A stretch of 55,567 bases of DNA from contig CACKXA010000004.1 in NCBI GenBank assembly GCA_902604055.1, positions 1 through 55,567 on the forward strand. The letters are read 5' to 3'. Both the position numbers and the translations under genes were made by a program. Source of the stretch: an uncultured Pelagibacteraceae bacterium (GTDB lineage Bacteria > Pseudomonadota > Alphaproteobacteria > Pelagibacterales > Pelagibacteraceae). The notes beneath the pieces were generated by a model. The model did no database searches. It was not told where the DNA came from and was given only the letters and a program-made list of their open reading frames with translations. Below are positions 1-24,262 of this stretch, one piece after another (position 1 is the stretch's first letter; each line of letters starts with the position of its first letter).

Positions 1-512
1 GTAAAGAACTTTTATGGAGATGGACTCAAACTGACGAAGGTAAAAAAGACAAAGATTATGCTCCATTAAAGGTATTTGATATTATTGGTTATGCAAAAAC
101 AGCTTCATCTCCACAAGAGGCAATACCTTTAAAATTTTTAGATACTAATTATGAAGTAATGATTAATAGAAATAATCTTTTATCAAATGCAAGAGCTTTC
201 CTTCGAAACAATAAAGAATTTATACCTCCAAAAGAGTGTAAATTTAACTTATCAGGTGAACAAGTAAGAAAAAAAATGCACAAAGTTCTTGATGATTTGT
301 ATAATGATAAAAAAATTTTGGATCATGGTATGGAAGTTGGTAAAGAATTAGCATATGTTTTAAGCGGTGGTAATACGGGTCCAAATAACGAAGTAACAGA
401 AGACGAAATGTATAAACTAGAATTAGACAGCTTTATGAAATTAATAGAAACTAAAAATACACAAAAAAGGATAGCGCATACCCTTAAAACAGGTAAGCCG
501 CTAATTAATTAA
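1..512 (+). CDS. 3-hydroxyacyl-CoA dehydrogenase / enoyl-CoA hydratase, FadN-like, 3' end only
   Basis: Partial gene: the reading frame (first full codon at base 3) is open from the window edge, so only about the last 170 residues are present. The end resembles the C-terminus of FadN-type bifunctional beta-oxidation enzymes: a helical stretch, then 'KELAYVLSGG' and a terminal 'GKPLIN', matching the 'GKPLRN'-like end I recall for FadN. Such enzymes hydrate enoyl-CoA and oxidise the 3-hydroxyacyl-CoA with NAD. The next gene starts on the base after this stop. In this context it probably handles CoA thioesters with the acyl-CoA dehydrogenase and ligase that follow. A later internal ATG at 159 is not the start, because coding similarity continues upstream. 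The catalytic domains lie outside the window. Confidence 0.78.
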   Translation, partial: KELLWRWTQTDEGKKDKDYAPLKVFDIIGYAKTASSPQEAIPLKFLDTNYEVMINRNNLLSNARAFLRNNKEFIPPKECKFNLSGEQVRKKMHKVLDDLYNDKKILDHGMEVGKELAYVLSGGNTGPNNEVTEDEMYKLELDSFMKLIETKNTQKRIAHTLKTGKPLIN

Positions 513-2273: not shown

Positions 2274-2275
2274 AA

Positions 2276-3904
2276 ATGAGTTCTTACGAAACAAATCTAG
2301 ATAAAAATAGAGCAAATTTTGTTCCATTAACTCCATTATCATTTTTAGATAGAGCAAAAGATATTTATCCAAATTATGAAGCAATAATTTACGAAAATAG
2401 AAAATATACTTGGATTGAAGTTTACAAACGCTGTGTAAAATTTGCTAGCGCTTTATCAAAAATAGGAATAAAGAAAGGCGATACGGTTTCTTTTCTAGCT
2501 TTTAATACACCAGAGATATTTGAAGCCCATTATTCAGTTCCAATGACAGGGGCTGTTTTAAATACAATTAATATAAGATTAGATGCTAAAACTATTTCAT
2601 ATATTTTAGATCATAGTGAAGCAAAAGTTTTAGTTGTTGATAGACAATTACATGTAGAAGTTAAAAAAGCTCTAAGTACTTTAAACAAAAAAATTACTAT
2701 AATCGATATAAATGATAAACATGCAGATCAATCAAAATTACAAAAAATTGGTGATCTAGAGTATGAAGAATTTCTTAATACAGGTGATGAAAATTTCGAA
2801 TGGAAATTGCCTAAAGATGAATGGCAATCAATATCATTAAGTTATACCTCAGGAACAACAGGTAATCCAAAAGGTGTCGTATATCATCATAGAGGAGCCT
2901 ATTTAATGTCCACTGGCAGTGCTACTGCTTGGAATATGCCTAGTAGATTAAATTTTTTAACTATTGTTCCTATGTTTCATTGCAATGGCTGGTGCTATCC
3001 ATGGACTGTTCCTATGTTAAATGGTCGAACTATTTGTCTTAGAAATATAGATATTAAAAAGATATTTGAATTAATTGAAAAATATAAAGTTACTCACTTT
3101 GGGGGAGCACCAATTGTTCTAAATATGATAACTGGAGCTCCAGAAACAGATAGAAAAAAACTAAATCACAAAGTTTATGTACTAACAGCTGGAGCGCCAC
3201 CACCAAGTATAATTTTTAAAAAAATGAAAAATCTTGGATTTGAAGTTATGCACGTATATGGATTAACTGAAACTTATGGTCATGTAACTCAATGTGCCTG
3301 GAACGATGAATGGAATGATTTTGATGAAGAAAAACAAAATGAAATAAAAGCTAGACAAGGTGTTAGATATCCAAATACTGAAGGTATTACGGTCATGGAC
3401 CCAGAAACTATGAAAGAAGTTCCTCGTGATGGTAAAACAATTGGAGAAATTATGATTAGAGGAAACGTGGTGATGAAAGGTTATTTCAAGGATAAAGAGG
3501 CTACAGAAAAAGCGATGAAAAACGGATGGTTTCACTCAGGAGATTTGGCGGTAATGCACCAAGATGGTTATGTAAAGATTCAAGACAGATCAAAAGATAT
3601 AATAATTTCAGGAGGAGAAAACATTTCTTCTATCGAGATCGAAAATACTTTAGCCAAACATTCTTCCGTTTCGATTGCGGCTGTTGTAGCAAAACCAGAT
3701 GATAAATGGGGAGAAGTTCCTTGTGCATTTATAGAAATGGTAAAGGATAAACCAGTTACAGAAAAAGAACTAATAGCTTTTTGTAAGGAAACTTTAGCAA
3801 GTTTTAAAGTGCCGAAAAAAATAGAATTTTGCGATCTTCCAAAAACTTCAACAGGAAAAATTCAAAAATTTGAACTAAGAAAAAAAGCTAAAAATTTAAA
3901 TTAA
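2276..3904 (+). CDS. Acyl-CoA ligase (AMP-forming), DmdB-like
   Basis: Adenylate-forming CoA ligase of 542 residues, normal length. The P-loop-like A3 motif 'YTSGTTGNPKG' is at 190-200, 'VPMFHCNGW' follows, then the A5 motif 'YGLTET', 'GWFHSGD' and the C-terminal lysine motif 'PKTSTGKIQ' near 530. It activates a carboxylate with ATP and CoA. The family includes DmdB, the methylmercaptopropionate-CoA ligase, and medium-chain acyl-CoA ligases that look alike in these motifs. Lying between a DmdC-like dehydrogenase and dmdA supports methylmercaptopropionate as substrate, but this is inference from context. Start at ATG 2276, two bases after the previous stop. Confidence 0.83.
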   Translation: MSSYETNLDKNRANFVPLTPLSFLDRAKDIYPNYEAIIYENRKYTWIEVYKRCVKFASALSKIGIKKGDTVSFLAFNTPEIFEAHYSVPMTGAVLNTINIRLDAKTISYILDHSEAKVLVVDRQLHVEVKKALSTLNKKITIIDINDKHADQSKLQKIGDLEYEEFLNTGDENFEWKLPKDEWQSISLSYTSGTTGNPKGVVYHHRGAYLMSTGSATAWNMPSRLNFLTIVPMFHCNGWCYPWTVPMLNGRTICLRNIDIKKIFELIEKYKVTHFGGAPIVLNMITGAPETDRKKLNHKVYVLTAGAPPPSIIFKKMKNLGFEVMHVYGLTETYGHVTQCAWNDEWNDFDEEKQNEIKARQGVRYPNTEGITVMDPETMKEVPRDGKTIGEIMIRGNVVMKGYFKDKEATEKAMKNGWFHSGDLAVMHQDGYVKIQDRSKDIIISGGENISSIEIENTLAKHSSVSIAAVVAKPDDKWGEVPCAFIEMVKDKPVTEKELIAFCKETLASFKVPKKIEFCDLPKTSTGKIQKFELRKKAKNLN

Positions 3905-3908
3905 ATAT

Positions 3909-4358
3909 ATGTCTGAAATCTCAATAGATTTAACCTGGAAACTTGGAGAAGCAAAAATGACACCTGAAAATTACTCAAATGTACATGAAATTGTGTTTAC
4001 GCCCAAAATTAAGATTATTGGTGACTCAGCCCCTGATTGGAGGGGAAATGACTTGAATATCAATCCAGAACAAACACTAGCTGCCTCTTTAAGTAGTTGT
4101 CATATGATGACTTTTTTGGCTTTAGCAGCAAAAATGAATTGGCCAGTGTTAAGTTATAAGGATAGGGCTATAGCTACACTTGGAAAAAATTCAAAAGGCC
4201 TAATGTCAGTTATTAAAATACAACTGACCCCTAAGGTAGAATTTTCTAAAAATTTTACAGTCGAACCCAACGAGATGAAAAAAATTCAAGATAGAGCGCA
4301 TAGATATTGTTTTATTGCAAATTCTTTATCTGATGAAGTAAAAGTTTTGATTAATTAA
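3909..4358 (+). CDS. OsmC-family protein
   Basis: A 149-residue OsmC/Ohr-fold protein. The two family cysteines are visible: Cys64 in 'SLSSCHMMTF' and Cys134 in 'HRYCFIANSL', the redox pair that reduces organic hydroperoxides in OsmC and Ohr. It sits four bases after the CoA ligase gene and four before a crotonase-fold gene. An OsmC protein inside a CoA-thioester operon is unusual. In a pathway that releases methanethiol and acts on thioethers it could protect against peroxides or act on a thiol intermediate, but this is a guess. Family assignment is good; the physiological substrate is unknown. Confidence 0.82.
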   Translation: MSEISIDLTWKLGEAKMTPENYSNVHEIVFTPKIKIIGDSAPDWRGNDLNINPEQTLAASLSSCHMMTFLALAAKMNWPVLSYKDRAIATLGKNSKGLMSVIKIQLTPKVEFSKNFTVEPNEMKKIQDRAHRYCFIANSLSDEVKVLIN

Positions 4359-4362
4359 TTTT

Positions 4363-5172
4363 ATGAATACTACAAGAAACGATCTGATTTTAAAAACATC
4401 ATTAAACGAAGATGGCATTTATCGTCTAACTCTAAACAATCCAGTAAACCATAATGTGCTATCTGAAAAAATGATGTCTAATATGCAAGATGCCTTAGAG
4501 GAATCCATTAATAATAGAAAAATAAGAGTAGTAATTATTTCAGCAGAAGGGCCAACCTTCTCAGCAGGACATGATTTAAAAGAATTAACTAAAGGTCGTC
4601 AAAATTCGGATAAAGGTAAAAGTTATTTTAAAACTATAATGAAAAATTGTTCAAAATTAATGCAGACAATAGTAAATAACCCAAAGCCTATAATTGCCGA
4701 GATCAATGGTGTTGCTACTGCAGCAGGTTGTCAACTAATAGCAAGTTGCGATTTAGCTTATGCAAGTTCTCTATCTAAATTCGCTACACCTGGTGTTAAT
4801 ATTGGTTTGTTTTGCTCGACACCAATGGTAGCAGTATCAAGAAATATATCCAATAAGCATTCAATGGAAATGCTTTTAGCAGGAGACTTAATCTCTGCTG
4901 ACGAAGCTGAGACAATTGGATTAATTAATAAGTCAATTACAGCATCATTATTAAAAGCCAAGACTTTAGAGATAGCTAAAAAAATATCAAAAAAATCTGC
5001 TTTAACATTAAAGATCGGAAAAGAAGCTTTTTATAAACAAATTAACATGAATTTATCAGATGCTTACGACTACGCTTCAAATGTGATGGTGGAAAATATG
5101 TTAAAGCTTGACGCGGAGGAAGGAATTGAAGCTTTTATAAATAAACGTAAACCTAATTGGCAAGATAAGTAA
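4363..5172 (+). CDS. Crotonase-fold (ECHDC3-like) protein lacking both catalytic glutamates
   Basis: A 269-residue enoyl-CoA hydratase/isomerase superfamily protein. 'FSAGHDLKEL' (66-75) and 'GVATAAGC' (116-123) form the oxyanion region. The segment 'GVNIGLFCSTP' resembles the ECHDC3 subfamily. Where rat enoyl-CoA hydratase has Glu144 and Glu164, this protein has Gln124 ('AAGCQ') and Gly144 ('ATPGV'), so classical hydration is unlikely. In the DMSP pathway the crotonase DmdD hydrates methylthioacryloyl-CoA; this gene occupies the place where a DmdD could be expected but is a different subfamily. It may bind a CoA thioester with another chemistry or act as an accessory protein. Confidence 0.8.
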   Translation: MNTTRNDLILKTSLNEDGIYRLTLNNPVNHNVLSEKMMSNMQDALEESINNRKIRVVIISAEGPTFSAGHDLKELTKGRQNSDKGKSYFKTIMKNCSKLMQTIVNNPKPIIAEINGVATAAGCQLIASCDLAYASSLSKFATPGVNIGLFCSTPMVAVSRNISNKHSMEMLLAGDLISADEAETIGLINKSITASLLKAKTLEIAKKISKKSALTLKIGKEAFYKQINMNLSDAYDYASNVMVENMLKLDAEEGIEAFINKRKPNWQDK

Positions 5173-5194
5173 ATATTAATAAAAAAGGATATAT

Positions 5195-5971
5195 TTGGAT
5201 TTCTTAATCGACAACAATAAAGTTTTTTCAATGGATACCGGAGAAAATTATGATGAAAAAAAACATTCGATTATTCTATTACATGGGAGTGGTCAATCCC
5301 ATGTTGTGTGGTCTTTAACAGCACAATATTTTTCTGATGAAAATTATAATGTTTTTGCTTTAGACTTTCCTGGCCACGGTAATTCTGAAGGTAAAAGTTT
5401 AAAAACAATAGAAGAAATGGCTATTTGGTTAAATAAAGTCATAGAACATTTTGGTATAAAGGAACTTAATTTAGTAGGTCATTCACAAGGATGTTTAGTT
5501 GCTTTAGAATATGCGAGTAAATTTTCTAAAAACCTTCAAAATATAATCTTTGTAGCTGGTTCTTATCAATTACCAGTGAATAAAAGTCTTATTGATTTAG
5601 CTCTGTCCGGTGATATGGAGGCTCTAAATTTAATGATGAAGTGGGGATATGGCAATTCAAAACAATTTATTGGAGGAAATCCCCTACAAAAAATATTAAA
5701 TTCTGCGAGAGAGGTAAGAGAGGTTTTAGCAGTAGATTTAATCGCGTGTAATACTTATAAGAATGGAATAAATGCAATAAAGAAGATTGATTGTCCAACT
5801 TTTTTTATTTTTGGAGAATTAGATAAAATGATTAAAATTGAAAAAGGAAAAGAATTTGCTGAATTAATATCTAATTCTAAAACTCACGTAATTAAAAATT
5901 GTGGTCATATGATTATTTTAGAAAATGCCTTTGAAATGAGAGAAAAAATCTTAGAATTTTTAAAAAAATGA
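5195..5971 (+). CDS. Alpha/beta hydrolase, TTG start
   Basis: A 258-residue alpha/beta-hydrolase. The nucleophile elbow 'GHSQG' gives Ser97, with Asp210 ('FGELD') and His238 ('NCGHM') completing a triad; 'LLHGSG' (28-33) supplies the oxyanion loop. The start is TTG at 5195, chosen because AAGGAT lies just upstream (5185-5190); the next in-frame ATG would remove 12 residues before the first strand. The stop overlaps the dmdA start (ATGA), so translation of the two is probably coupled. It may hydrolyse a thioester or ester in the DMSP-derived route, but the substrate cannot be read from sequence. Confidence 0.8.
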   Translation: MDFLIDNNKVFSMDTGENYDEKKHSIILLHGSGQSHVVWSLTAQYFSDENYNVFALDFPGHGNSEGKSLKTIEEMAIWLNKVIEHFGIKELNLVGHSQGCLVALEYASKFSKNLQNIIFVAGSYQLPVNKSLIDLALSGDMEALNLMMKWGYGNSKQFIGGNPLQKILNSAREVREVLAVDLIACNTYKNGINAIKKIDCPTFFIFGELDKMIKIEKGKEFAELISNSKTHVIKNCGHMIILENAFEMREKILEFLKK

Positions 5972-7074
5972 AAACTATTATAACAAGATCTAGACGTTTA
6001 AGAGGAACATCATTTACTTCAAGGATTGAAGAACAAGGTGTAAAAAGTTACACGGTTTATAATCACATGCTTTTACCAACAACTTTTTCTACACCCGAAG
6101 AAGAATACAATCACTTAAAAAAATATGTACAAATATGGGATGTTTCTGTTCAAAGGGAAATTGAAATTACGGGAAAAGATTCTTCGCAACTTGTTCAACT
6201 TATGACTTGTAGAAATTTATCAAACTCAAAGATTGGTTTTTGTTATTACGCTCCTTTAGTTGATTCTGAGGGAGGTGTTATAAATGATCCGCTAATTTAT
6301 CGGTTAAGTGAAAGCAAATGGAGAGTATGTATAGCAGACTCAGACGTTTTACTATTTGCAAAAGGCATTGCATCAGCAAAAAAGTTAGATGTAAATATTT
6401 TTGAGGCAAAGATTGATGTTTTAGCAGTGCAAGGACCAAACTCTGATAAATTAATGGAAAAAGTATTTGGTGAAAGAATAAATAAATTAAAGTTTTTTAG
6501 ATTTGATTTTTTCGAATTTAATAAGAAAACCTTTCTAATATCAAGATCAGGATATTCAAAACAAGGTGGTTTTGAGATACATATTGAAGATATAGAAGCA
6601 GGATTAAACCTATATGACCATTTTTTTAAAATTGGTGATGTTTTTAACTTAAAACCCGGTACACCAAACCATCCAGAAAGAATTGAGGGAGGATTATTGT
6701 CATATGGAAGTGATATGGATATTAATGACAATCCTTTTGAGTGTGGATTTGACAAATATATAGACCTAGAATCAGATATAATATTTCTAGGAAAAGAAAA
6801 ATTAATTAAGATAAAAGAAAATGGAATTAAAAAGAGACTTATGGGTGTAAAAATTGAAGCTAAAGCAATAACTATTACAAAGGAAATACCTATGAAAAAT
6901 TCTGAAGGAAAAGTTTTGGGACAACTTAGATCTGCTGCTTTTTCACCTAAGTTTAAAAGGATAGTAGGTATAGCAATGATAGAAAAAGATTACTGCAAAC
7001 AACTACAAAAATTTCAAATAGAGATAAACAATAATGTTTTTTTAGGAGAAATTTGTAATTTACCAATAGAATAA
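5968..7074 (+). CDS. dmdA: Dimethylsulfoniopropionate demethylase DmdA
   Basis: A 368-residue GcvT-fold protein that matches Pelagibacter DmdA along its length as I remember it. Shared segments include 'YTVYNHMLLP' (28-37), 'VQIWDVSVQR' (54-63), 'LMTCRNL' (78-84), 'SRSGYSKQGG' (192-201) and 'NPFECGFDKY' (254-263). DmdA transfers a methyl group from DMSP to tetrahydrofolate, giving methylmercaptopropionate and 5-methyl-THF in the cytoplasm. The other DmdA-like features and length argue against glycine-cleavage GcvT, as no other gcv genes are near. It overlaps the hydrolase gene by four bases and is followed three bases later by a complex I-associated gene. Upstream dehydrogenase and ligase genes fit breakdown of its product. 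Confidence 0.92.
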   Translation: MKTIITRSRRLRGTSFTSRIEEQGVKSYTVYNHMLLPTTFSTPEEEYNHLKKYVQIWDVSVQREIEITGKDSSQLVQLMTCRNLSNSKIGFCYYAPLVDSEGGVINDPLIYRLSESKWRVCIADSDVLLFAKGIASAKKLDVNIFEAKIDVLAVQGPNSDKLMEKVFGERINKLKFFRFDFFEFNKKTFLISRSGYSKQGGFEIHIEDIEAGLNLYDHFFKIGDVFNLKPGTPNHPERIEGGLLSYGSDMDINDNPFECGFDKYIDLESDIIFLGKEKLIKIKENGIKKRLMGVKIEAKAITITKEIPMKNSEGKVLGQLRSAAFSPKFKRIVGIAMIEKDYCKQLQKFQIEINNNVFLGEICNLPIE

Positions 7075-7077
7075 GAT

Positions 7078-7362
7078 ATGAAGAAAGCTAAGATTTATAT
7101 TCCAACAAAAACTGCCATGCAATCGGGTAGGGGAAAACAAAAAAAATGGGTTTTAGAATTTGAAACCAAAGATACTAAGATTAACCCTCTTATGGGCTGG
7201 GAATCTTCTACAGATACTCTTGAAGAAGTAATTTTGAGATTTTCCACACAAGAACAAGCAGTTGAGTATGCAAAAAAAAATTCAATTTTATATAAAATCA
7301 TTGAACCTAAAAAAGAGAAATTTGTCATAAAGTCTTATGCTGATAATTTTCTTAAAAACTAG
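7078..7362 (+). CDS. NDUFS4-like complex I accessory protein (ETC_C1 family)
   Basis: A 94-residue protein of the NDUFS4/ETC complex I family common in alphaproteobacteria. Diagnostic segments are 'KIYIPTKTAMQSGRGK' near the start, 'WVLEFE', 'PLMGWESSTDT' and the terminal 'IKSYADNF'. In bacteria and mitochondria this protein is an accessory of NADH:quinone oxidoreductase on the matrix/cytoplasmic arm. It starts three bases after dmdA and precedes an SbmA-like gene by two bases. It normally sits apart from the nuo operon, as here. Its function is not specific to DMSP. Confidence 0.9.
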   Translation: MKKAKIYIPTKTAMQSGRGKQKKWVLEFETKDTKINPLMGWESSTDTLEEVILRFSTQEQAVEYAKKNSILYKIIEPKKEKFVIKSYADNFLKN

Positions 7363-7364
7363 AT

Positions 7365-8369
7365 ATGTGGCGTAGTTTTTTTAAAGATCAAAAATGGTAT
7401 TACTGGTCATACGGTGGTGGTTTTTTTATATTGTCTCTATTAGTGGCTCAAACTTATTTAGATGTGTTGTTTAACAGTTGGTACAAGGACTTTTACGATA
7501 TTCTTCAGACCGCTGAAGAAAGAGAAATATCTGAATTCTGGAGTTCTATTAAAAAATTTCTTTATATAGCTTTGCCTTATGTAACACTTTTTGCCTTTAC
7601 AAATTGGTTTACAAGACTTTGGGCTTTTAGATGGCGTGAAGCCATGACATTTTCTTATATGCCTTATTGGCGCGCAACTGAGTCAAAAGTTGAGGGTTCT
7701 TCCCAAAGAATTCAAGAAGATTGTATGAATTTCGCAAAGATAGTCGAGTCAATTGGTCTACAAGTTGTTAAAGCTATTATGACGTTAATTGCATTTATTC
7801 CAATACTTTGGGTTCTTTCATCAAATGTTTCTGTGCCTTTTTTAGATAATATTTCTGGTTCTTTAGTCTGGGTGGCGTTGATTTTAAGTATTGGAGGGAT
7901 TATCATTAGTTGGTTAGTAGGTATCAAACTACCAGGTTTAGAGTATAATAATCAGAAAGTAGAAGCGGCATTTCGAAAAGAATTAGTCTACGGTGAAGAT
8001 GATAGAAAAAATTATGTTCAAGCTCCTACAATTTTACAATTATTTACTGGCATTAAGTTTAATTATCATAAATTATTTTTACATTATGGATATTTTGATC
8101 TTTGGGCCATCTGGTATAGGCAATTATTCGTAATTGTACCTTTTTTAATTATGGCTCCAGGTTTATTTACTGCTGCATTTACATTAGGTGTGATGATGCA
8201 AGTCGTTAATGCCTTTGGAGAAGTAAAAGATGCTTTTTCTGTATTTTTATATAATTGGACTAGAATAACAGAACTAAGATCTATACACAAACGACTAATG
8301 GAGTTTGAAAACTCGATCAATTATACAAAGAAGTTGAGAAAACCAAGAAAATCTGATGTAAGAGTTTAA
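7365..8369 (+). CDS. SbmA/BacA-family transporter, N-terminally short
   Basis: Membrane protein of 334 residues matching the SbmA/BacA family: 'FRWREAM', 'RIQEDCMNFA', 'AIMTLIAFIPIL', 'GIKLPGLEYNNQKVEAAFRKELVYGEDD' is split across conserved blocks, and 'LGVMMQVVNAFG' near the end. E. coli SbmA is about 406 residues; this one lacks roughly the first 75-80, including the first membrane helices. It keeps the core helices and the loops. The family imports peptides and modified compounds using the proton gradient and in rhizobia affects very-long-chain fatty acids. It overlaps the next gene by one base. The short N-terminus appears natural because the start is only two bases after the previous stop. 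Confidence 0.86.
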   Translation: MWRSFFKDQKWYYWSYGGGFFILSLLVAQTYLDVLFNSWYKDFYDILQTAEEREISEFWSSIKKFLYIALPYVTLFAFTNWFTRLWAFRWREAMTFSYMPYWRATESKVEGSSQRIQEDCMNFAKIVESIGLQVVKAIMTLIAFIPILWVLSSNVSVPFLDNISGSLVWVALILSIGGIIISWLVGIKLPGLEYNNQKVEAAFRKELVYGEDDRKNYVQAPTILQLFTGIKFNYHKLFLHYGYFDLWAIWYRQLFVIVPFLIMAPGLFTAAFTLGVMMQVVNAFGEVKDAFSVFLYNWTRITELRSIHKRLMEFENSINYTKKLRKPRKSDVRV

Positions 8370-9268
8370 TGGATTTATATATTAAACTCTTTGATGTTCT
8401 TTTTCCCGTTTTTTTTGTTATTGGAGTAGGTTACTATTTAGGTGTAAAGGATCCAAAATTCGATACTAAATTTATCACAAATTTTGCTGGAAACATTGGT
8501 ACTCCAGCAATGATCTTTTATACTATTACTACTACTGGCGTAACTTTGAGTGTATTTATAGAATATTTTATATATGCTTTAATTATAATTGGTGGTTTTT
8601 CAATTGTTGGTCTTATATTTCTTTTGCTACTAAAAAAAGATATTATTAGCGAATTACCTCCCTTGATCTTACCGAATACAGGTAACATGGGTGTTCCTAT
8701 TTGTTTGTTTGCTTACGGGACAGCAGGGCTTGGAGTAGCCTCAGCGATAGCATCAGTTATTATACTTCTTCACTTTACAGTTGGTGTATTGTTGGCAAAA
8801 AAGAGTTTTTCATTAGATATTTTAATCAAAAATGTTCCTATTTACGGAATTATTGTTGCAGTAACTTTTTTGTATTTTGAATGGGAAGTTCCTGGATTTT
8901 TAGAAAACACTACTTTTTTACTTACCTACACAACTATATTTTTAGTATTGATGTCTTTAGGTATAGCTTTATCCAGATTTCAGGTAGTATCGTGGTCTAA
9001 AGCATCAATATTAGGAGCTGTAAGAGTTATTATAGGTCCAATTATAGGATTTAGTTTAATAAAATATTTGGATCTTGATGGATTTGCAGCTGGTGTTCTA
9101 TTAATTCAATCTTCAATGCCTAGTGCAGTTTTAACATATTTAGTAGGCTCCATGTATTCAGAGAAAGAAGTGGTAGATAGTGTTGCAAGTGTTATTGTAA
9201 CCTCTACAATGATGTCATTAATTACTGTTCCTATTGTAGTATTTTATAGTTTAAAATTTTTCCAATAA
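8369..9268 (+). CDS. AEC (auxin efflux carrier) family permease
   Basis: A 299-residue very hydrophobic protein with about eight to ten membrane segments and the AEC-family pattern: 'VLFPVFFVIGVGYYLG' at the N-terminus, the central 'LPNTGNMGVPI' and the late 'QSSMPSAVLTYLVGSMY'. AEC carriers transport organic acids such as malate or malonate; some act in efflux. It is the last gene of the long co-directional run, with ATG overlapping the previous stop by one base, and is followed by a 410-base gap before ogt. A role in moving a carboxylate linked to the preceding genes is possible, but substrate specificity is not visible. Confidence 0.85.
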   Translation: MDLYIKLFDVLFPVFFVIGVGYYLGVKDPKFDTKFITNFAGNIGTPAMIFYTITTTGVTLSVFIEYFIYALIIIGGFSIVGLIFLLLLKKDIISELPPLILPNTGNMGVPICLFAYGTAGLGVASAIASVIILLHFTVGVLLAKKSFSLDILIKNVPIYGIIVAVTFLYFEWEVPGFLENTTFLLTYTTIFLVLMSLGIALSRFQVVSWSKASILGAVRVIIGPIIGFSLIKYLDLDGFAAGVLLIQSSMPSAVLTYLVGSMYSEKEVVDSVASVIVTSTMMSLITVPIVVFYSLKFFQ

Positions 9269-9653
9269 ATACAATGACTTACAATTAGTTCTTTATGTTA
9301 TACGTTAATTTATTAGTAAGTATTACTGACGTATAATAGGAAATAGCTTAAAAAACATTGAAAATAAGAGCTAATTTAAGCTTCTTTAAAAGATTAAAAT
9401 AAAAAAAAAAAATGATTATTTAAAAAAACGACTAAAAATAAGGTAAAATAATAGAATGATGTTAAAAAAATTCAATAATACCAGGTGTTTTGGTCGACTT
9501 AAAAGGCTTGAATATCAACCATTCTAGGAGCTTTGCAGTATAGGAATATAGCGTTTAAAAGGCCATAGAGGGCGAATTTTTTGAGATTATACTATACAGA
9601 GTACAACTAACTGGTGAATCAAATAAAATAGCAAGCGTAGTGGGGTAGTTAGA
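9269..9653. other. Non-coding stretch after the DMSP run
   Basis: No convincing gene. It starts with an imperfect palindrome (9299-9335), followed by a very A-rich segment near 9405-9470, then a less AT-biased part (about 9480-9650). Only tiny reading frames occur, such as one of 23 codons from 9454. I did not recognise tRNA, tmRNA, 6S or riboswitch motifs. The more GC-balanced second half may be decayed sequence or an unrecognised small RNA. Confidence 0.5.
9299..9335. repeat. Imperfect palindrome overlapping a TATAAT box
   Basis: The outer arms TATACGT (9299-9305) and ACGTATA (9329-9335) are perfectly complementary, and inside them AGTAA (9315-9319) and TTACT (9323-9327) form a second short dyad. 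A perfect TATAAT (9332-9337) overlaps the right arm. This could be an operator on a rightward promoter or the base of a hairpin after the AEC gene. There is no T-run that would make it a clear terminator. Confidence 0.4.
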
Positions 9654-9683
9654 CTAGATCGCCCGTCAAATAACAATTCTAGA
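9654..9683 (+). repeat. Inverted repeat, left arm, at the 3' end of ogt
   Basis: This 30-base arm matches the reverse complement of 9943-9972 at 26 of 30 positions, with a perfect 16-base core (ATCGCCCGTCAAATAA, 9658-9673). All four differences are transitions. The arm overlaps the stop and last codon region of ogt, while its partner lies in the first codons of ogt. Read on the + strand it would encode LDRPSNNNSR, a close copy of the ogt N-terminal LNRPSNNDFR. Confidence 0.8.
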
Positions 9684-9978
9684 CGATTATACCCTCTCTT
9701 TTTAGTAGTAATTTCTTAGTTTTCAAACCACCCTTGCCCGAATACCCTCCTAATGAACCATCTGATCTAATTACCCTATGACAGGGTATTTTTGGTGCAA
9801 AAGGGTTTTTTCCTACAGCATTAGCTACAGCTCTTGAAGATTTTGGCTTATTTATAGCTATAGCGACCTGTTTATAGCTCTTTACGGTGCCTTTTCTTAT
9901 AGTCTTAAGATAATTCCATACCTTTTTTTGAAATTTAGTCCCTCTAAAATCATTATTTGACGGGCGATTTAGCTTCAT
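9679..9978 (-). CDS. ogt: Methylated-DNA--protein-cysteine methyltransferase, short form
   Basis: A 99-residue protein consisting only of the C-terminal catalytic domain of the Ogt/MGMT family. The active-site motif 'PCHRVI' places the methyl acceptor at Cys66. The helix-turn-helix with the arginine finger is seen in 'SSRAVANAVGKNP' (Arg49). 'GGYSGKGGLKTKKLLLKREG' is the usual end. It repairs O6-alkylguanine by irreversible transfer to the cysteine. Because Cys is present it is not an alkyltransferase-like protein. It overlaps the cupin-like gene by four bases (ATGA), so the two probably form an operon. Both ends of the gene lie in a 30-bp inverted repeat. Confidence 0.9.
   Translation of the reverse strand: MKLNRPSNNDFRGTKFQKKVWNYLKTIRKGTVKSYKQVAIAINKPKSSRAVANAVGKNPFAPKIPCHRVIRSDGSLGGYSGKGGLKTKKLLLKREGIIV
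9943..9972 (-). repeat. Inverted repeat, right arm, inside the ogt N-terminus
   Basis: Partner of the arm at 9654-9683 (26/30, perfect 16-base core at 9953-9968). It encodes ogt residues from Leu3, LNRPSNNDFR. The two arms bracket 259 bases that hold nearly all of ogt. Confidence 0.8.
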
Positions 9979-10364
9979 TTCGAGTATTTTGCAAACTGTT
10001 TAGAACCTTTATTTGGCCCCGCTAATAGCAGCGTCCAAGCAGGTTTACCATCAGGAATCTTTAAACTATGCCTATCTAAGGCTTTTCTAAAGCCTATATA
10101 GCCTGGACCTCTCCAAAAAGTCCCATTTTCATTGGTTTCCCAGTACCCACCTTTAAGTATAATTGTTATGTAAGGCCAATAATGATCATGCAAATCACCT
10201 AGATCACTCTTTAAAATTTTATGAAGAAGAATATTGAAAGGAAACCATTTAGGTCTTTTACGAAAAAGCAAATAGTATCTGATCATGAATGGCTCAGCTT
10301 TATCATAGTCCGGCCAGCTCGGACCGCGATCCAAAAGTAATCTTTTTCGATTCTCAAACATCAT
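9975..10364 (-). CDS. Cupin-like protein of unknown function
   Basis: A 129-residue soluble protein. It resembles small cupin-fold hypotheticals: 'DLHDHYWPYITIILKGGY' places a His-Asp-His cluster at residues 59-61, followed by 'RGPG' and 'DRHSLKI' with a later His99 and a final 'AWTLLLAGP' strand. Those histidines could bind a metal. No enzyme family can be named. It is the first gene of a two-gene minus-strand unit with ogt and is divergent from the recombinase gene, separated from it by 84 bases. Confidence 0.6.
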   Translation of the reverse strand: MMFENRKRLLLDRGPSWPDYDKAEPFMIRYYLLFRKRPKWFPFNILLHKILKSDLGDLHDHYWPYITIILKGGYWETNENGTFWRGPGYIGFRKALDRHSLKIPDGKPAWTLLLAGPNKGSKQFAKYSK

Positions 10365-10378
10365 TTTAATTTAAACAC

Positions 10379-10407
10379 TTGACACTAGAAATCATCTATT
10401 ATATTAC
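10379..10407 (+). promoter_or_regulatory. Putative promoter of the recombinase gene
   Basis: A perfect -35 TTGACA (10379-10384) is followed 17 bases later by TATTAC (10402-10407); TATATT at 15 bases is an alternative. Downstream, GATAA (10412-10416) and TTATC (10424-10428) form a small dyad that could be an operator. The start codon is at 10449. Confidence 0.45.
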
Positions 10408-10448
10408 TAACGATAATTAATGGTTATCAATAGTAATATTAAAAAATT

Positions 10449-11405
10449 ATGAAAAATTTAGTAACTGACTTAAAAGCATTACAAGAAGAAACTATTAAAA
10501 ACTTACAAAACTCTAAAGCAAATAATACTGTTAGAGCCTATAAATCAGATTTCAAGGACTTTGGTCTATTCTGTGTTCAAAACGGATTTAAAAATCTTCC
10601 TTCAGATCCAAAAATTGTATCCCTGTATTTAACTCATTTATCTACAAAAGAAGTAAAATTAAGCACAATTCGAAGAAGGCTAGTTTCTATTGGGGTAATT
10701 CATAAAATTAAGGGACATTATTTAGATATGAAACATCCAGTTATAGTAGAAAATTTATTGGGTATCAAAAGAAGAAAAGGAAGTGTTCAAAAAGGTAAAA
10801 AACCTATTTTAATCAATGAGTTAAGAAAAATTCTTAATGTTATAGATGAGCAAAATTCACCAGATATTAAAAAACTAAGAGACAAATCAATTATATTAAT
10901 AGGGTTTTCGGGAGGGTTTAGAAGAAATGAAATAATTTCATTGGATTATGAAGACTTGGACTTTGTATATGAAGGGTTAAAGATAACCATTAAAAGGTCC
11001 AAAACAGACCAATTTGGAGAAGGTACAATTAAAGCTCTGCCCTATACAAAGGAAAGCCCCTATTGTCCTGTAACAACTTTAGAGAGATGGCTTAAAATAT
11101 CAAAAATAAATAAAGGTCCAATATTTAGAAGATTTTCAAAGGGATCTAATTTATCAAAGAATAGATTAACTGATCAATCAGTAGCTATAATAATCAAAAA
11201 CTATCTAAATAAAGCTGGTATTGATAGTAAAAACTACTCAGGACACAGTCTCAGATCAGGATTTGCCACTACCGCAGCAGAGTCAGGTGTGGAAGAAAGA
11301 AGTATCATGGCTATGACAGGCCATAAATCTACAGAAATGGTAAGACGTTATATAAAGGAAGCAAATTTGTTTAAAAATAATGCTTTAAACAAAATTAAAA
11401 TTTAA
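10449..11405 (+). CDS. Tyrosine recombinase / phage-type integrase
   Basis: A 318-residue tyrosine recombinase with an N-terminal SAM-like core-binding domain (about 10-105) and a catalytic domain. The complete catalytic set is visible: Arg158 in 'GGFRRNE', Lys185 in 'SKTDQ', His266 and Arg269 in 'HSLRSG', His292 in 'GHKST' and nucleophile Tyr301 in 'RRYIKE'. It lacks the extra insert of integron integrases. It is not next to a xer-type chromosome gene set, so it is probably a mobile-element or island recombinase. It converges on the FkbM gene; the two stop codons overlap in TTAA. It sits at the left edge of the glycan island and beside the ogt inverted repeat. Start at ATG 10449. Confidence 0.9.
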   Translation: MKNLVTDLKALQEETIKNLQNSKANNTVRAYKSDFKDFGLFCVQNGFKNLPSDPKIVSLYLTHLSTKEVKLSTIRRRLVSIGVIHKIKGHYLDMKHPVIVENLLGIKRRKGSVQKGKKPILINELRKILNVIDEQNSPDIKKLRDKSIILIGFSGGFRRNEIISLDYEDLDFVYEGLKITIKRSKTDQFGEGTIKALPYTKESPYCPVTTLERWLKISKINKGPIFRRFSKGSNLSKNRLTDQSVAIIIKNYLNKAGIDSKNYSGHSLRSGFATTAAESGVEERSIMAMTGHKSTEMVRRYIKEANLFKNNALNKIKI

Positions 11406-19606: not shown

Positions 19607-21046
19607 CTATTTTAAGCCTAGATGAGTATATTTAACGTTTAAGTAGTCTTTAATAGCCATAGAGCCGCCTTCTCTTCCATATCCAGTTTGTTTTATACCT
19701 CCAAAAGGTGCTTCTGGTAGCGCAACAACACCAGTGTTAACAGCAACAGTACCTGTTTCCATTAACTCTGAAGCTTTATGAGCTTTTTCAAGATTATTTG
19801 TATAGACATAACTAGCTAATCCAAGATCATTATTATTTGCTCTTTTCACTACTTCATCAAAATGTTTAAATGAGAGTATTGGAACTAGTGGTCCAAAAGG
19901 CTCTTGCTTCATAATGGTGAAATCATCTTTAACATTATCAAAAACAGTTGGTTCATAAAAATAACCTTTGTTAAATCCTGCTGGTTTTTTTCCACCTGAT
20001 AGAACTGTAGCACCTTCATTTTTAGTAACCTCCACTAAAGCTTCAACTTCCTCTAGCCTCTTTTTTGTCGTTAAGGGACCTAAAATAGTGTCTTGCTCCA
20101 TTCCATTTCCTATCTTTAATTTTTTCGTTTTTTCAACCATCATTTTTGTAAAAGCATCCTTTTTTTTTTCATGTATATAAAAACGACTAGGCGAAATACA
20201 TACTTGACCGTTATTTCTAAATTTAGCAAAAATTGCTATATCCGTAACTTTATCTATATCAGCATCTTCGAAAACTATGAAAGGTGAATGTCCGCTAAGT
20301 TCCATAGTAACTCTTTGGACCTTATCAGCTGCTTTTTTTAAAATTAATTTTCCTACTCGAGTTGAGCCTGTTATTGAAACTTTTTTTATTATATCAGATG
20401 AAAGTAACTGGTCAGAAATATATGCTGGATCACCGGATAATAAATTAACAACACCGGGAGGAACCCCTGCTTCATTGCAAATATCTACCAACTCCATTAC
20501 AGATCCTGGAGTTATAACGTCGGGTTTAACTATTACAGAACACCCTGCAGATAAAGCAGTAGAAATTTTTCTTGATGCAAGTGTTATTGGAAAATTCCAA
20601 GGAACAAGAGCAGCCACAACACCTACTGGCTGATACGAAACTTGAATTCTAGTATCAGGAGATCTTCCTTGTAAAGTTTCTCCGTAGATTCTTTTTGCCT
20701 CTTCAGAGCTCCATTCAAATATATCAGCTGCACCATTTGCTTCACCAGAACCTTCTTTGAGAGGTTTTCCTACTTCTAGTGTTAACCATTTGGCTAGAAT
20801 ATCATTTTTTTTTCTCATTAATTCTGAAATTTTTCTTATCACCTTAGATCTTTCCCATGGAGAGGTATTTCTCCAAATGTTAAAACCTTTTTCAGCGGAT
20901 TTGAGACATAAATCAATATCTTCTTTGTTAGCTTTTGATGCTTTTCCTATTACTTCTTCTGTTGCAGGATTTATTACGCTATAGGTTTCTCCACTAAAGG
21001 ATTTTTGCCATTTACCGTTTATAAATTGACCAAATTTTTCGTACAT
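19607..21046 (-). CDS. NAD(P)-dependent aldehyde dehydrogenase (semialdehyde type)
   Basis: A 479-residue ALDH-superfamily enzyme. 'VPWNFP' and 'VIVKPD' (Lys174) bind NAD(P), Glu249 in 'MELSGHSP' is the general base, and Cys283 in 'NNGQVCISP' is the nucleophile; 'PFGGIKQTGYGREGG' ends the oligomerisation region. Overall it resembles succinate-semialdehyde dehydrogenase (GabD) and 2-oxoglutarate-semialdehyde dehydrogenase; the substrate cannot be decided here. It faces leftward, with its start about 50 bases from the decayed tRNA-Glu copy. Its base composition is closer to core genes than to the glycan island. Confidence 0.85.
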   Translation of the reverse strand: MYEKFGQFINGKWQKSFSGETYSVINPATEEVIGKASKANKEDIDLCLKSAEKGFNIWRNTSPWERSKVIRKISELMRKKNDILAKWLTLEVGKPLKEGSGEANGAADIFEWSSEEAKRIYGETLQGRSPDTRIQVSYQPVGVVAALVPWNFPITLASRKISTALSAGCSVIVKPDVITPGSVMELVDICNEAGVPPGVVNLLSGDPAYISDQLLSSDIIKKVSITGSTRVGKLILKKAADKVQRVTMELSGHSPFIVFEDADIDKVTDIAIFAKFRNNGQVCISPSRFYIHEKKKDAFTKMMVEKTKKLKIGNGMEQDTILGPLTTKKRLEEVEALVEVTKNEGATVLSGGKKPAGFNKGYFYEPTVFDNVKDDFTIMKQEPFGPLVPILSFKHFDEVVKRANNNDLGLASYVYTNNLEKAHKASELMETGTVAVNTGVVALPEAPFGGIKQTGYGREGGSMAIKDYLNVKYTHLGLK

Positions 21047-21094
21047 AATTAATCTTAATAGTCAGACTATATTTAAAAATAACTTTTTTCAAGA

Positions 21095-21130
21095 TGGCGG
21101 TCTCAAGGGGAAACGAATCCCTCTTTGTTG
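21095..21130 (-). pseudogene. Partial, decayed copy of the tRNA-Glu 3' half
   Basis: These 36 bases match the 3' part of the intact tRNA-Glu (22425-22460) at 33 positions: CCA, the 3' acceptor strand, the T arm and part of the anticodon stem. Beyond this the sequence differs and the D arm and anticodon loop are missing. The orientation is the same as the intact gene. A 3'-end tRNA fragment in direct orientation is the usual trace left by a tRNA-targeting integrase. Confidence 0.82.
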
Positions 21131-21500
21131 ATCGTTATTCTAGGTCAGAACCGCTTTATTATCAATATTTTAGCATAATTCTTTTAAACTAACTAGAGCT
21201 TGATTGTAATTTGTTCACACTCGCAAAGGAAAAATGACTTGTATCAGAAAGCTACGAGACAAATAACAGGTAATAATAAGAAGTTAAAATTCCCCAAATA
21301 TTTCAAAGTTTTGCGTTTAGAAATTTTTAGCAAATAAATGTACAAAGGAAACGGAGTTTATTATGAAAAATGAACATTTCGAGTATTTATATTAACTTCC
21401 TCCTCAACCTTGATACAGCTGACTCAAAAGTTTCTTGCTTTGTTAACATTTAATGCTTAAGAATGATTAGAAAAAAAGAATTTATAGTAAAATTATTTCA
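21131..21500. other. Non-coding stretch inside the tRNA-Glu-bounded insert
   Basis: No substantial gene seen. It contains a candidate leader reading frame (21363-21395) and a second overlapping 11-codon frame from 21338. No clear terminator or riboswitch was recognised. Confidence 0.5.
21363..21395 (+). CDS. Possible leader peptide of ten residues
   Basis: The short frame MKNEHFEYLY has GGAG (21353-21356) six bases before its ATG, a better ribosome-binding site than most genes here possess. A CCTCC-containing segment (21398-21406) follows the stop and could pair with the GGAG. It lies 106 bases upstream of the exported-protein gene. A frame this short may be chance. Confidence 0.2.
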   Translation: MKNEHFEYLY

Positions 21501-22313
21501 ATGAAAAAAATAAATAAATTATTATATATCTTTTTAATCTTGACTTGGAGCAACATCAGTTTTTCCGAAGATCTTAAAAAGATAAATATTAGTCAATCTT
21601 TTATTCACTTTATGGTATCCGATGACATTGGGTGGAGAACAAATATTGAATCAGTATTAATCAGCAAAAATAAAAATATTTTTTTGGTCAAAGAGTGTAG
21701 AGCAGAATCAGTATCTCATCAACGACCTTTCTTTAGTCATCCATTTAGATATGAATTTCTTGCAATCGTAGAAAATGATAAAAGTCATTTTATTAGAACA
21801 TCTGCTACTGATGGAAATGACTCGAATATCATACTTGATTCCTCAATCAAAAATAAAAAATACATAACTGAAAGCAATGCCAATGATTTGAGTTTTGATG
21901 AAGTCTATGAAATACTTTTGTCTGGCAAAAAAAAAAATATTTATTGTAAAATCGATTATGAACACGAAGGAATTAAATATAGTTTAATTTCAGAATGTGA
22001 ATATATAAATTACGGTTCTGATAAAGATAATAATAAATATTTACAACCTATAATGGGATATACTCCTTTTTTTCATGAAAATAAAATTAGATATGGTTAT
22101 GCTGCTATAAATAAAAATAAAAAAAATAATGGAAGATTAGAATTTTTACTTAATGAAAAAAGTCCACTCTTCAATGTTTCTATAGATCAAAACTTATTTA
22201 AATTGTATATTAAAAAATTTTTGAATAAATTATTGTTTTTTTATAATAAAAATGATTTTACAGAATTAGTTTCCATTAAAGAGAGCAAAGTTAATTTTTT
22301 TTCATTTAATTAG
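21501..22313 (+). CDS. Exported protein of unknown function
   Basis: A 270-residue protein I do not recognise. Residues 1-22 look like a Sec signal peptide: basic start 'MKKINK', hydrophobic core and 'ISFSED' cleavage region. The mature part is polar and rich in Lys, Asn and Tyr, with mixed strands and cysteines at 'KECRAES', 'IYCKID' and 'SECEY', which might pair in the periplasm. It is the only sizeable gene between the decayed and the intact tRNA-Glu, and is on the opposite strand to its neighbours. This suggests acquired cargo. Confidence 0.6.
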   Translation: MKKINKLLYIFLILTWSNISFSEDLKKINISQSFIHFMVSDDIGWRTNIESVLISKNKNIFLVKECRAESVSHQRPFFSHPFRYEFLAIVENDKSHFIRTSATDGNDSNIILDSSIKNKKYITESNANDLSFDEVYEILLSGKKKNIYCKIDYEHEGIKYSLISECEYINYGSDKDNNKYLQPIMGYTPFFHENKIRYGYAAINKNKKNNGRLEFLLNEKSPLFNVSIDQNLFKLYIKKFLNKLLFFYNKNDFTELVSIKESKVNFFSFN

Positions 22314-22346
22314 TTTTGATGAATTGAAATAGATTTAATATTACTA

Positions 22347-22367
22347 TTTGATCGCAATCTGATCAAA
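22347..22367 (+). terminator. Hairpin after the exported-protein gene (weak terminator candidate)
   Basis: TTTGATC (22347-22353) and GATCAAA (22361-22367) form a perfect 7-bp stem with a 7-base loop, 34 bases after the stop. No T-run follows on the + strand, so intrinsic termination is doubtful. Confidence 0.3.
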
Positions 22368-22424
22368 ATAAGAAAAAAATGTTTTTAGAAAGAATTAATG
22401 TTTAAACCGATTTTCAAGTGGTAT

Positions 22425-22499
22425 TGGCGGTCCCAAGGGGAATCGAACCCCTCTTTGTTGGATGAAAACCAACTGTCCTAACCGATAGACGATGGGACC
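22425..22499 (-). tRNA. tRNA-Glu (UUC)
   Basis: Read on the minus strand it starts GGTCCCA, which pairs with TGGGACC, and ends in discriminator G plus an encoded CCA (22425-22427). The D arm includes GGTTAGGAC, the anticodon loop is TTTTCAT with anticodon TTC, and the T arm has GGTTCGATT. Its first 22 bases are also the last codons and stop of recJ. A 36-base partial copy lies at 21095-21130. Confidence 0.96.
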
Positions 22500-24262
22500 G
22501 TATTTTTGAATGTCTTGTTAACAGAAATATCATCAATAATAAACTCTACATTTGATTGCCCTTTCCACTCATTTAGGGATAATTTTCCTGCAATATTAAA
22601 TAACTTATTATCCTTTTTAAGTAAGTGAGCTCCTATTTCGTTTTCCAAAGAATTAAAAGCTATACTTTTTATAGTTGTTCCTTCCTGACCTATAAGAATC
22701 GATTTAATATGCTTATCTTTTAGTATTTTATTATTAACAGATTTTAAATTTTCTATTATAAATTTTGGTTCTGGGTTGCCCGATCCAAAAGGAGCTAAAT
22801 AATGAACTTTATTATAAAAATCTAGATTAACAGCAGAAGGAGCAACTATGCAATCTAGATATAAAGGTTTTTCTTTTGATGCTTGTTTAACGTTATTTCT
22901 AAACTTTTGAAAAATAAAATTTTTAAACTTTTCTATATTTTCAGTTTTTATTGAGAAACCTCCTGCCATTTTATGCCCGCCACCCTTTATCAATATATTT
23001 AATTGAACTGCTGCGATAATAATAGAACCAATATCAAAACCTACAATAGATCTAGCTGATGCTTTACCAACATTATTTTCGACTGAAATAATAATAACTG
23101 GCTTATTAAACTTATCTTTAATTCTTGATGCAACAATTCCTATAACACCCTCATGCCAGTTTTCCCCAGATAGAACTAGAACTGGATCTGAAAGTTGTTC
23201 TAAAACTTTTTTTGATATTTTTTGTAAAGCATCCTCTTCTAACAATTTTCTTTCTTTATTAAAATAATCTAACTCTGATGCTATTTTAAAAACTTCTTTT
23301 GGATTAGAATTAATCAATAAATTAGCACCGTGAGAAGATTTACCAACTCTACCACCTGCATTAATTCTTGGTCCTAAAACATATCCTAAATGATAAATAT
23401 TTGGGTTTGTTTCAATTTTACAAAGGTCCGACAAAGTTTTTAGTCCCAAATTATTTTTAGATTTAAAAACTTTTAATCCTTGTTTAACAATAGCCCTATT
23501 TAATCCAATTAATGGAACAACATCACATACAGTTCCTAAGGATACTAAATCCAAATACTGAATTAGATTTGGTTCATTAATATTGTTATTATCAAACCAT
23601 TTATTAAGTCTCAATTCTTTGTTTAAAGAAATTAAGAACATAAATGTTACACCGGCTGCACATAAATAGTTTAAATTTGACTTATCGTCTAAACGATTAG
23701 GATTGATTATTGAATAAGCATTAGGTAAATTGATTTCAGATTGATGGTGATCTAAAACTATTACATCTACATGATTTTTATTTGCATACTCTATTGCTTC
23801 AAAGGATAAAGTTCCACAATCTACAGTAAAGATAATCTTTATGTTTTTGCTAATCAATTTTTTAAATGCTTCTATAGATGGACCGTACCCCTCTTTTTTT
23901 CTGTCTGGTATATATATTTCATATGGTATTTTTAGTTCAGAAAAGTAATTTCCAAGTAAAGCAGTAGAAGTTGCTCCATCCACATCATAGTCACCAAAAA
24001 TTCCTATTTTCTCATTTTTTTTAATAGCCATGATAGTTCTTAAAGAGGATTTTTTCATGTCATTTAGAGACTCTGGATTTGGAAGAAAATTCTTTATTGA
24101 TGGGTCTAAAAAATTTTTAACTTCTTCTCTTTTAATATTTCTTATTGATAAAAGTTTTGAGGTTATTTCATCTAAAAACAAATTTTCTTTTAAGAAAGAT
24201 AAATCAGCTTGATTATATTTCTTTATAATCCATTGTTTACCACTTACCGAAAGTGAATTCAT
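22478..24262 (-). CDS. recJ: Single-stranded-DNA-specific exonuclease RecJ
   Basis: A 594-residue DHH-family 5'-3' exonuclease. 'FGDYDVDGATS' (89-99) and 'VLDHHQSE' (DHH at 171-173) are the metal-binding motifs; 'PRINAGGRVG' and the DHHA1 motif 'GGGHKMAGGF' follow, with an OB-like domain at the end. It acts in RecF-pathway recombination and mismatch repair. The start overlaps the glpX stop by four bases, in a hom-glpX-recJ order common in alphaproteobacteria. The last residues VPSSIG and the TAG stop come from the 5' part of tRNA-Glu, so the two genes overlap by 22 bases on the same strand. Confidence 0.95.
   Translation of the reverse strand: MNSLSVSGKQWIIKKYNQADLSFLKENLFLDEITSKLLSIRNIKREEVKNFLDPSIKNFLPNPESLNDMKKSSLRTIMAIKKNEKIGIFGDYDVDGATSTALLGNYFSELKIPYEIYIPDRKKEGYGPSIEAFKKLISKNIKIIFTVDCGTLSFEAIEYANKNHVDVIVLDHHQSEINLPNAYSIINPNRLDDKSNLNYLCAAGVTFMFLISLNKELRLNKWFDNNNINEPNLIQYLDLVSLGTVCDVVPLIGLNRAIVKQGLKVFKSKNNLGLKTLSDLCKIETNPNIYHLGYVLGPRINAGGRVGKSSHGANLLINSNPKEVFKIASELDYFNKERKLLEEDALQKISKKVLEQLSDPVLVLSGENWHEGVIGIVASRIKDKFNKPVIIISVENNVGKASARSIVGFDIGSIIIAAVQLNILIKGGGHKMAGGFSIKTENIEKFKNFIFQKFRNNVKQASKEKPLYLDCIVAPSAVNLDFYNKVHYLAPFGSGNPEPKFIIENLKSVNNKILKDKHIKSILIGQEGTTIKSIAFNSLENEIGAHLLKKDNKLFNIAGKLSLNEWKGQSNVEFIIDDISVNKTFKNTVPSSIG

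Follow-up and report, generated by a model that had tools for sequence, protein, structure and literature searches.

This study concerns a 1.3-kb insert beside a tRNA-Glu gene of an uncultured Pelagibacteraceae (SAR11) bacterium, carried on a 55,567-nucleotide stretch of contig CACKXA010000004.1 (assembly GCA_902604055.1) that we call the window. SAR11 are the most abundant marine bacterioplankton and have few recognised mobile elements. Read along the minus strand, the locus consists of recJ, tRNA-Glu(UUC) at 22499-22425, the insert, a 36-nt tRNA fragment at 21130-21095 and ALDH from 21046. The names recJ, ALDH and, below, serA are those we take the sequences to represent, serA-like being a label for a 318-aa open reading frame (ORF). 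The features are:

22425..22499, minus strand: intact tRNA-Glu(UUC), the presumed integration target (ARAGORN, TTC; Rfam tRNA, 59 bits)
22425..22460, minus strand: tRNA-side attachment core, the 3' half of the intact tRNA-Glu (36-nt repeat; other cassettes end in the same core)
22350..22365, minus strand: putative left arm-type sites of class B, two 11-nt-spaced TGATC/CGATC repeats (7/8 at lag 11)
21501..22313, plus strand: cargo, a 270-aa predicted exported protein running opposite to the tRNA, the only sizeable ORF in the interval
21200..21221, minus strand: putative right arm-type sites, decayed, TGTGAAC..ACAATC where relatives have GTGATC..GTGATC (alignment)
21131..21229, minus strand: conserved class B right end with a remnant of the GACCTAGGGTC palindrome adjoining the core (alignment, model R1)
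21095..21130, minus strand: distal attachment core, the tRNA-Glu 3' fragment, 33/36 (repeat, within-genome match)
21047..21094, minus strand: chromosomal junction, the sequence found right after tRNA-Glu in ALDH-type empty relatives (alignment against shuffles)
19607..21046, minus strand: ALDH, first core gene past the insert (ORF, synteny)
22478..24262, minus strand: presumably recJ, core gene upstream of the tRNA (ORF, synteny)
10449..11405, plus strand: Xer-like tyrosine recombinase, a genus core gene outside the cassette (Phage_integrase family match)

The copy of the tRNA-Glu 3' half (21095-21130 against 22425-22460) is identical at 33 of 36 positions, lies in the same orientation and starts 1,330 bp from the original. 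As a within-genome match it is significant (E 5.4e-8), so the repeat is not due to chance. Rfam placed only the tRNA above its gathering score. An integrase profile, built from 12 integrases (that of the G104 element described below and its relatives) together with the window recombinase and applied to every frame of 25 aa or more, found no recombinase frame in the insert. An earlier note on this DNA, made from the letters and ORFs alone, had described the repeat, the single sizeable cargo gene for an unknown exported protein and the absence of an integrase; all three are borne out. The presumed recJ frame stops inside the tRNA-Glu gene, overlapping the tRNA 5' end by 22 nt (22478-22499).

The tRNA and adjacent recJ DNA were used to search 169 genomes of the window's genus, of which 135 matched. 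They yielded 119 oriented loci with a complete tRNA-Glu (120 stretches plus the window; L251 and L252, which lack a full tRNA, were left out). A site was called empty when serA or ALDH lay at most 60 bp from tRNA-Glu, and 80 of the 119 loci were empty (53 serA, 27 ALDH). Another 27 were filled, holding between one and four inserts, every one of which terminates in a 3' fragment of tRNA-Glu: 21 single, three double, two triple and one quadruple, 37 inserts in all. Of the remaining 12, L091 runs into a contig end and 11 are weighed below. The distance to the next core gene rises by the length of the insert; ALDH, for example, lies at about 10,385 in empty loci and at 11,683 in L042, which has a 1,315-bp insert. 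Outside this count, L251 (genome G042) retains a fragment together with a right end of class B. Empty sites come in two layouts, tRNA-Glu followed by serA with ALDH some 10.38 kb on, or tRNA-Glu followed by ALDH (L035-L134); the block of about 10.3 kb between them is present or absent and carries no tRNA fragment.

These loci also locate the junction. The 48 bp after the window's fragment align with the 33-54 bp that follow the intact tRNA in ALDH-type empty relatives (best z 4.9 against shuffles), and in 18 of 20 empties they do so better than the left end of the insert does; in about eight lower-ranked empties of another intergenic type the match is near chance. Behind the same repeat, cassettes lie at 26 other loci, nearly all with different cargo. 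The earlier note's central proposal of tRNA-targeted integration is thus upheld by the empty sites, the recurrence of the repeat behind other cassettes and the post-fragment match. Its stated counter-case, an old tandem tRNA-Glu duplication followed by decay, would leave that interval in every relative. By itself, the 36-nt repeat would fit such a history. However, homology to the tRNA stops near tRNA position 40, and what lies beyond (21131-21226) is a conserved element end rather than decayed tRNA, scoring 67.4 bits against model R1, in which the window sequence is itself included. Loci without a second copy predominate. The empty sites, the other cargo and the match to empties therefore refute a duplication, whose probability we put close to nil.

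In total, 38 fragment-ended inserts were collected, 37 from the genus and one from another genus (G214). They measure 0.5-4.2 kb or, excluding the 4.2-kb G104 element, 528-3,517 bp with a median of 1,488. In 29 of the 37 genus cassettes the last 24 nt equal those of the host's own tRNA; the window core, with three mismatches, is among the eight that differ. Their ends fall into three classes. Class A comprises 27 cassettes by best score, including the G104 element and a tied case (L110), with a left end of the form AAAACTTCAAAAACC...CTGTGTCACCAGTGTGTCATG and a right end of the form TGTGTCCGTAGTGAGTCCGTTCTTGCC...AACAAAGAGGGG. Class B comprises ten, the window's among them, with GTGATC..GTGATC at either end and, adjoining the core, a GACCTAGGGTC-like palindrome. 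Class C, that of G214, has GGGCACAC repeats at both sides. One locus (L106 of G011, about 480-11350) has four cassettes stacked behind a single tRNA-Glu, their classes being A, B, A and A.

Each end typically bears two 11-nt direct repeats. In the 36 cassettes available before two more were added, a repeat at lag 11 was present in 25 of the left ends and 24 of the right ends, against 3.3 and 2.5 in shuffles and at most 10 for any other lag. By best score, all 38 cassettes have the same arm class on the left as on the right; L110 is an uninformative tie, which leaves 37 of 37 decidable cassettes in agreement. The class motifs were picked after the ends had been viewed, which makes agreement within classes descriptive; more independent checks are how far lag-11 repeats outnumber those in shuffles and how far the arm pairs exceed their density in core DNA. 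TGTGTC pairs occur at 4.7 per kb in left ends and 3.4 in right ends, against two in 644,856 bp of core DNA over both strands (0.002 per strand); for GTGATC pairs the densities are 2.6 and 1.7, against ten in the same core DNA (0.008 per strand). Cassette interiors (52,658 bp) hold one TGTGTC pair and no GTGATC pair. The class A right end occurs 22 times in 18 of the 169 genomes, each time within about 80 nt of a tRNA-Glu core, and a reversed-pattern control gave none among the matches listed.

Seventeen cassette pairs, picked for shared ORF clusters or ends, were compared with their flanks. The cassettes of L042 and L069 are 94.9% identical over 1,321 nt against 73.7% in the recJ flank, and their downstream genes differ; those of L096 and L102 are 97.3% identical against 81.5% and 74.4%; those of L131 and L091, 96.1% over 743 nt against 68.3%; and those of L061 and L084, 99.8% against 86.1% and 90.6%. 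The remaining pairs were weaker or had only part of a cassette in common. Cassettes 95-99.8% identical between flanks only 68-91% identical indicate horizontal movement, most likely by integration in trans. An alternative is that cassettes spread by homologous recombination of their flanks or ends after DNA uptake, site-specific recombination having acted only in the past. It would account for a hybrid in genome G117 that joins a class A left end to the right end of the G104 element, and for the window and G117 cassettes that have cargo in common and different right-end subtypes. It sits poorly with recJ flanks of 68-86% identity beside cassettes of 95-99.8% right up to the core, and with downstream genes that can differ outright (serA versus ALDH) after near-identical cassettes. 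We consider this alternative unlikely.

The integrase profile matched a single insert locus of 34 and a single cassette of 38, the G104 element; the other 37 cassettes gave no match. The earlier note had suggested that the recombinase at 10449 might mobilise the insert. This protein belongs to the Phage_integrase family, scores below the curated cut-offs for XerC and XerD, and is present in one copy per genome in 119 of the 169 genus genomes and in 12 of the 14 most complete; G015 has in addition a partial match of 58 residues. Its presence in most genomes would suit a general mobiliser. It is, however, found in single copy in genomes with empty and with filled sites alike, the cassette ends match an element that has its own integrase, and arm-type sites are a usual feature of phage-like heterobivalent integrases rather than of Xer recombinases. 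The 10449 recombinase is a single-copy core gene and an unlikely mobiliser, and we rate the chance that it moves the cassettes as very small.

The G104 element (L046) is 4,173 bp long and encodes, adjoining the core, a 328-aa tyrosine recombinase (Pfam Phage_integrase, 9.5e-24; best solved relative HP1 integrase, 2.1e-11), as well as a 477-aa primase-like protein (PHROG primase, 4.5e-10) and small ORFs. Both of its ends carry class A arms, and its last 125 bases are identical at 124 positions to those of an integrase-less G117 cassette with an ordinary class A left end and cargo unlike that of the element. Relatives of its integrase lie at tmRNA (G326) or near other tRNAs, and such integrases occur in 12 of 397 genomes of a family sample, including two from the genus. 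It might be argued that larger autonomous elements, islands or prophages, once sat at tRNA-Glu and that the cassettes are what deletions left of them, no longer able to move. The decay of the window copy, the existence of one integrase-bearing element with the same arm type and the integration-module-less islands that the available text of PMC3146451 describes in Dehalococcoides would all fit. Against this, cassettes with unrelated cargo have conserved ends, the first ORF begins at exactly +74 in 15 of 38 cassettes, and the cassette coding fraction is 0.84. Integrase-less cassettes are moreover almost the same in genomes whose flanks have diverged, and have thus moved without encoding an integrase themselves. 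A remnant origin is, in our judgement, quite unlikely.

Among the tRNA-Glu loci, many sites are empty, and the filled ones have precise junctions and in places several cassettes in tandem; cassette ends are conserved over varied cargo, the arm classes of the two ends match, 37 of 38 cassettes lack an integrase, and cassettes have spread horizontally. We conclude with good confidence that a tyrosine recombinase inserted a non-autonomous mobile cassette site-specifically into the 3' end of tRNA-Glu, and that the interval 21095-22424 is this cassette, now in decay. The 'degraded satellite' of the earlier note came close, in that decay and lack of autonomy stand; cassette is the better description. 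Each cassette of the family is a mini-element, in which a left arm with two direct repeats of 11 nt is followed by one gene or a few, a right arm with two further 11-nt repeats and the tRNA-Glu 3' core. A rare element would provide an integrase in trans, and this enzyme would bind the arms, circularise the cassette and join its core to tRNA-Glu, restoring the tRNA and setting most cargo genes co-directional with it, where they may be expressed from the tRNA transcript. The G104 element, with its HP1-like enzyme, is the candidate source of this integrase for class A. Integration in trans is the best reading of the ends and their distribution, though one that we infer; it appears strongest for class A and weakest for class B, to which the window belongs. 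The window copy, with its three core mismatches and mutated right arm, is probably no longer mobile.

Several observations weigh against this interpretation. Excision, circular forms and integrase activity are predictions from sequence, and the genomes compared are draft assemblies, some labelled as metagenome-assembled genomes. The integrase profile found no class B integrase among the 38 cassettes. G104-type integrases are rare, occurring in two of the 169 genus genomes (E<=1e-10), and the second is only 33% identical and lies at another tRNA. The window's right arm is weak, scoring 0.67 for class B and 0.58 for class A and recognisable mainly through alignment; the tied cassette L110 is more class B-like in its core-proximal sequence. 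At 11 loci extra genes follow tRNA-Glu with no recognisable fragment, so not all gene gain here takes the cassette route. Searches with the core, the class A right end and the G104 integrase and element found no viral or phage contig bearing the core as a phage-type attachment site (attP). Horizontal transfer of the window cassette itself is suggested, short of demonstration: compared with the third G117 cassette, the exported-protein gene is 84.7% identical over 818 nt and ALDH 79.0%, and the recJ flank comparison spans only 86 nt. Among loci with extra genes, L126 (G062) holds metabolic and transporter genes over 6.8 kb from tRNA-Glu to ALDH; this stretch, which may be an ancestral operon, has no tRNA fragment.

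The 38 cassettes contain 82 ORFs of at least 70 aa, of which 67 are co-directional with the tRNA and 15, including the window's, are opposite. A hydrophobic N-terminus, scored by simple hydropathy rather than by a signal-peptide predictor, is found in 40 of these 82 against 63 of 337 core ORFs downstream of 40 empty loci (odds 4.1, p 1e-7). Hexamer scores for promoters in cassette left ends were no better than in shuffles, so expression from the tRNA transcript stays something we infer. A Pfam scan of 20 insert-locus ORFs gave a PrsW protease, a trypsin-like protease, a Z1/ResIII helicase, a glutaminase with ankyrins, DUF805, MORN, a weak alginate-lyase match and a glycosyltransferase from a fragment-less locus, with several ORFs unmatched. 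Of three other cassette ORFs scanned against PHROG, two had weak matches (a zinc-finger family and a family with no assigned function) and one had none.

The window's 270-aa protein has no match in Pfam, PHROG, NCBIfam or PADLOC. It occurs in three of the 169 genus genomes, its own included, with relatives 76% identical in the G117 cassette and 37% identical in G078, and 187 genomes sampled from the order yielded none but itself. Over 269 codons the ratio of non-synonymous to synonymous substitution rates (dN/dS) between the window and G117 genes is 0.36, a value by which the gene is still under purifying selection. A structure predicted from a three-sequence alignment reached a mean predicted local distance difference test (pLDDT) score of 41.7. 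The G078 relative (L196, 1483-2277) is on a contig other than the tRNA-Glu contig, is without a signal-like N-terminus and lies, by eye, between a NeuB-like gene and an ABC transporter, probably a glycan locus. Two other readings of the cargo were rejected. PADLOC matches for other cassettes were generic (helicase, ankyrin, protease) and the window ORF had none, which disfavours a defence function; a prophage remnant would be expected to hold phage structural or replication genes, and by PHROG, against which the window ORF has no match, the window insert holds none.

Gene cassettes delimited by tRNA fragments and forming additive flexible islands are described, in the available text of the sources, for Ca. 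Actinomarinales (PMC7771536) and for tRNA-Lys of Methylopumilus (PMC10872708). These resemble the present family in repeated insertion at one site and, in Methylopumilus, in cargo of mostly uncharacterised genes (PMC10872708); they concern other lineages, and the available text mentions no conserved arms, matched arm classes or integrase element with identical ends. The window locus likewise has an intact tRNA with a same-orientation 3' fragment and empty sites in relatives, and lacks an integrase of its own, which is usual in such islands but no requirement for additive cassettes. At ssrA of Dehalococcoides, the available text of PMC3146451 reports tandem att-flanked islands, 15 without and 16 with an integration module. 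The likeness lies in tandem islands at an RNA gene, some integrase-less, with att repeats; there the module is a serine recombinase and the region reaches up to 100 kb, whereas here the arms are of tyrosine type, the median is 1.5 kb and almost all cassettes are integrase-less. The window insert also has the make-up of a cis-mobilisable element (CIME), with att sites at both ends and no recombination or transfer genes (the latter by Pfam, for the window ORF and the 20 ORFs), and the G104 element is a candidate helper of such CIME-like cassettes.

Tycheposons of Prochlorococcus, 4-200 kb long with a tyrosine recombinase according to second-hand accounts in the available parts of PMC10872708 and PMC11389934, similarly occupy tRNA targets in streamlined marine hosts, and the G104 element, with its integrase and primase-like protein, resembles one. 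The cassettes share the tRNA integration, but are smaller and without a tyrosine recombinase, the window insert included; only the G104 element has one. Integron cassettes and clusters of attC sites lacking integron-integrases (CALIN) are likewise small, mostly in one orientation, arrayed and served by an integrase elsewhere, as the available text of PMC11389934 has it; the sites here differ in that arm repeats flank a tRNA core, as in a phage attP, and no attC-type site was seen, though no search aimed at one was made. In SAR11 itself, the accessible part of PMC12416821 describes a phosphonate-uptake operon that was transferred laterally and lies next to tRNAs and tyrosine recombinases. tRNA-delimited additive or CIME-like cassettes are therefore already known, and the SAR11 tRNA-Glu family is a variant with matched arms. 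We found no published account of arm-matched integrase-less cassettes at SAR11 tRNA-Glu within a limited coverage that left subscription literature and the original tycheposon paper outside it.

How SAR11 gain genes is largely open, and these cassettes offer a concrete route, with a landing site, arm sequences, a candidate integrase and near-identical copies across species. This would be a natural minimal attP-type cassette system whose cargo travels without a recombinase, and it may account for part of the variable exported and membrane proteins of SAR11, which are candidates for phage or predator interaction. More broadly, and as a tentative proposal to which we would not yet commit, tRNA-Glu in SAR11 could be an integron-like acquisition platform. 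Satellite elements passing through would bring the integrases that insert, in trans, cassettes of one to a few genes, each with cognate arms of one of several specificities; the cassettes would accumulate in tandem, be expressed downstream of the tRNA and supply a shared pool of envelope and exported proteins.

Viral sequences were searched piece by piece. The 35-nt core matched no viral contig. The 24-nt core was found in eight, all within complete phage tRNA genes, and was rejected as a viral attP. The class A right end had no match in viral contigs and, in phages, matched 18 records in its tRNA part only. No relative of the G104 integrase appeared in viral contigs; in phages relatives were remote, with less than 30% identity among the best 20 of 473 matches, and the whole G104 element had no DNA match there.

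Beyond the genus, the 24-nt core with at most one mismatch is present in 305 of the 397 family-sample genomes. Multiple cores are common in the window genus and rare elsewhere (for example G214, G270 and G195). The G214 cassette, from the sole other-genus locus opened, is 1,493 bp long and holds three small ORFs between its own arm repeats. In G099, an integrase-bearing stretch of 5.1 kb (L211, 8518-13711) lies between tRNA-Met and a tRNA-Met fragment, with CGGCACAC repeats near both ends (by eye) that resemble the class C arms of G214.
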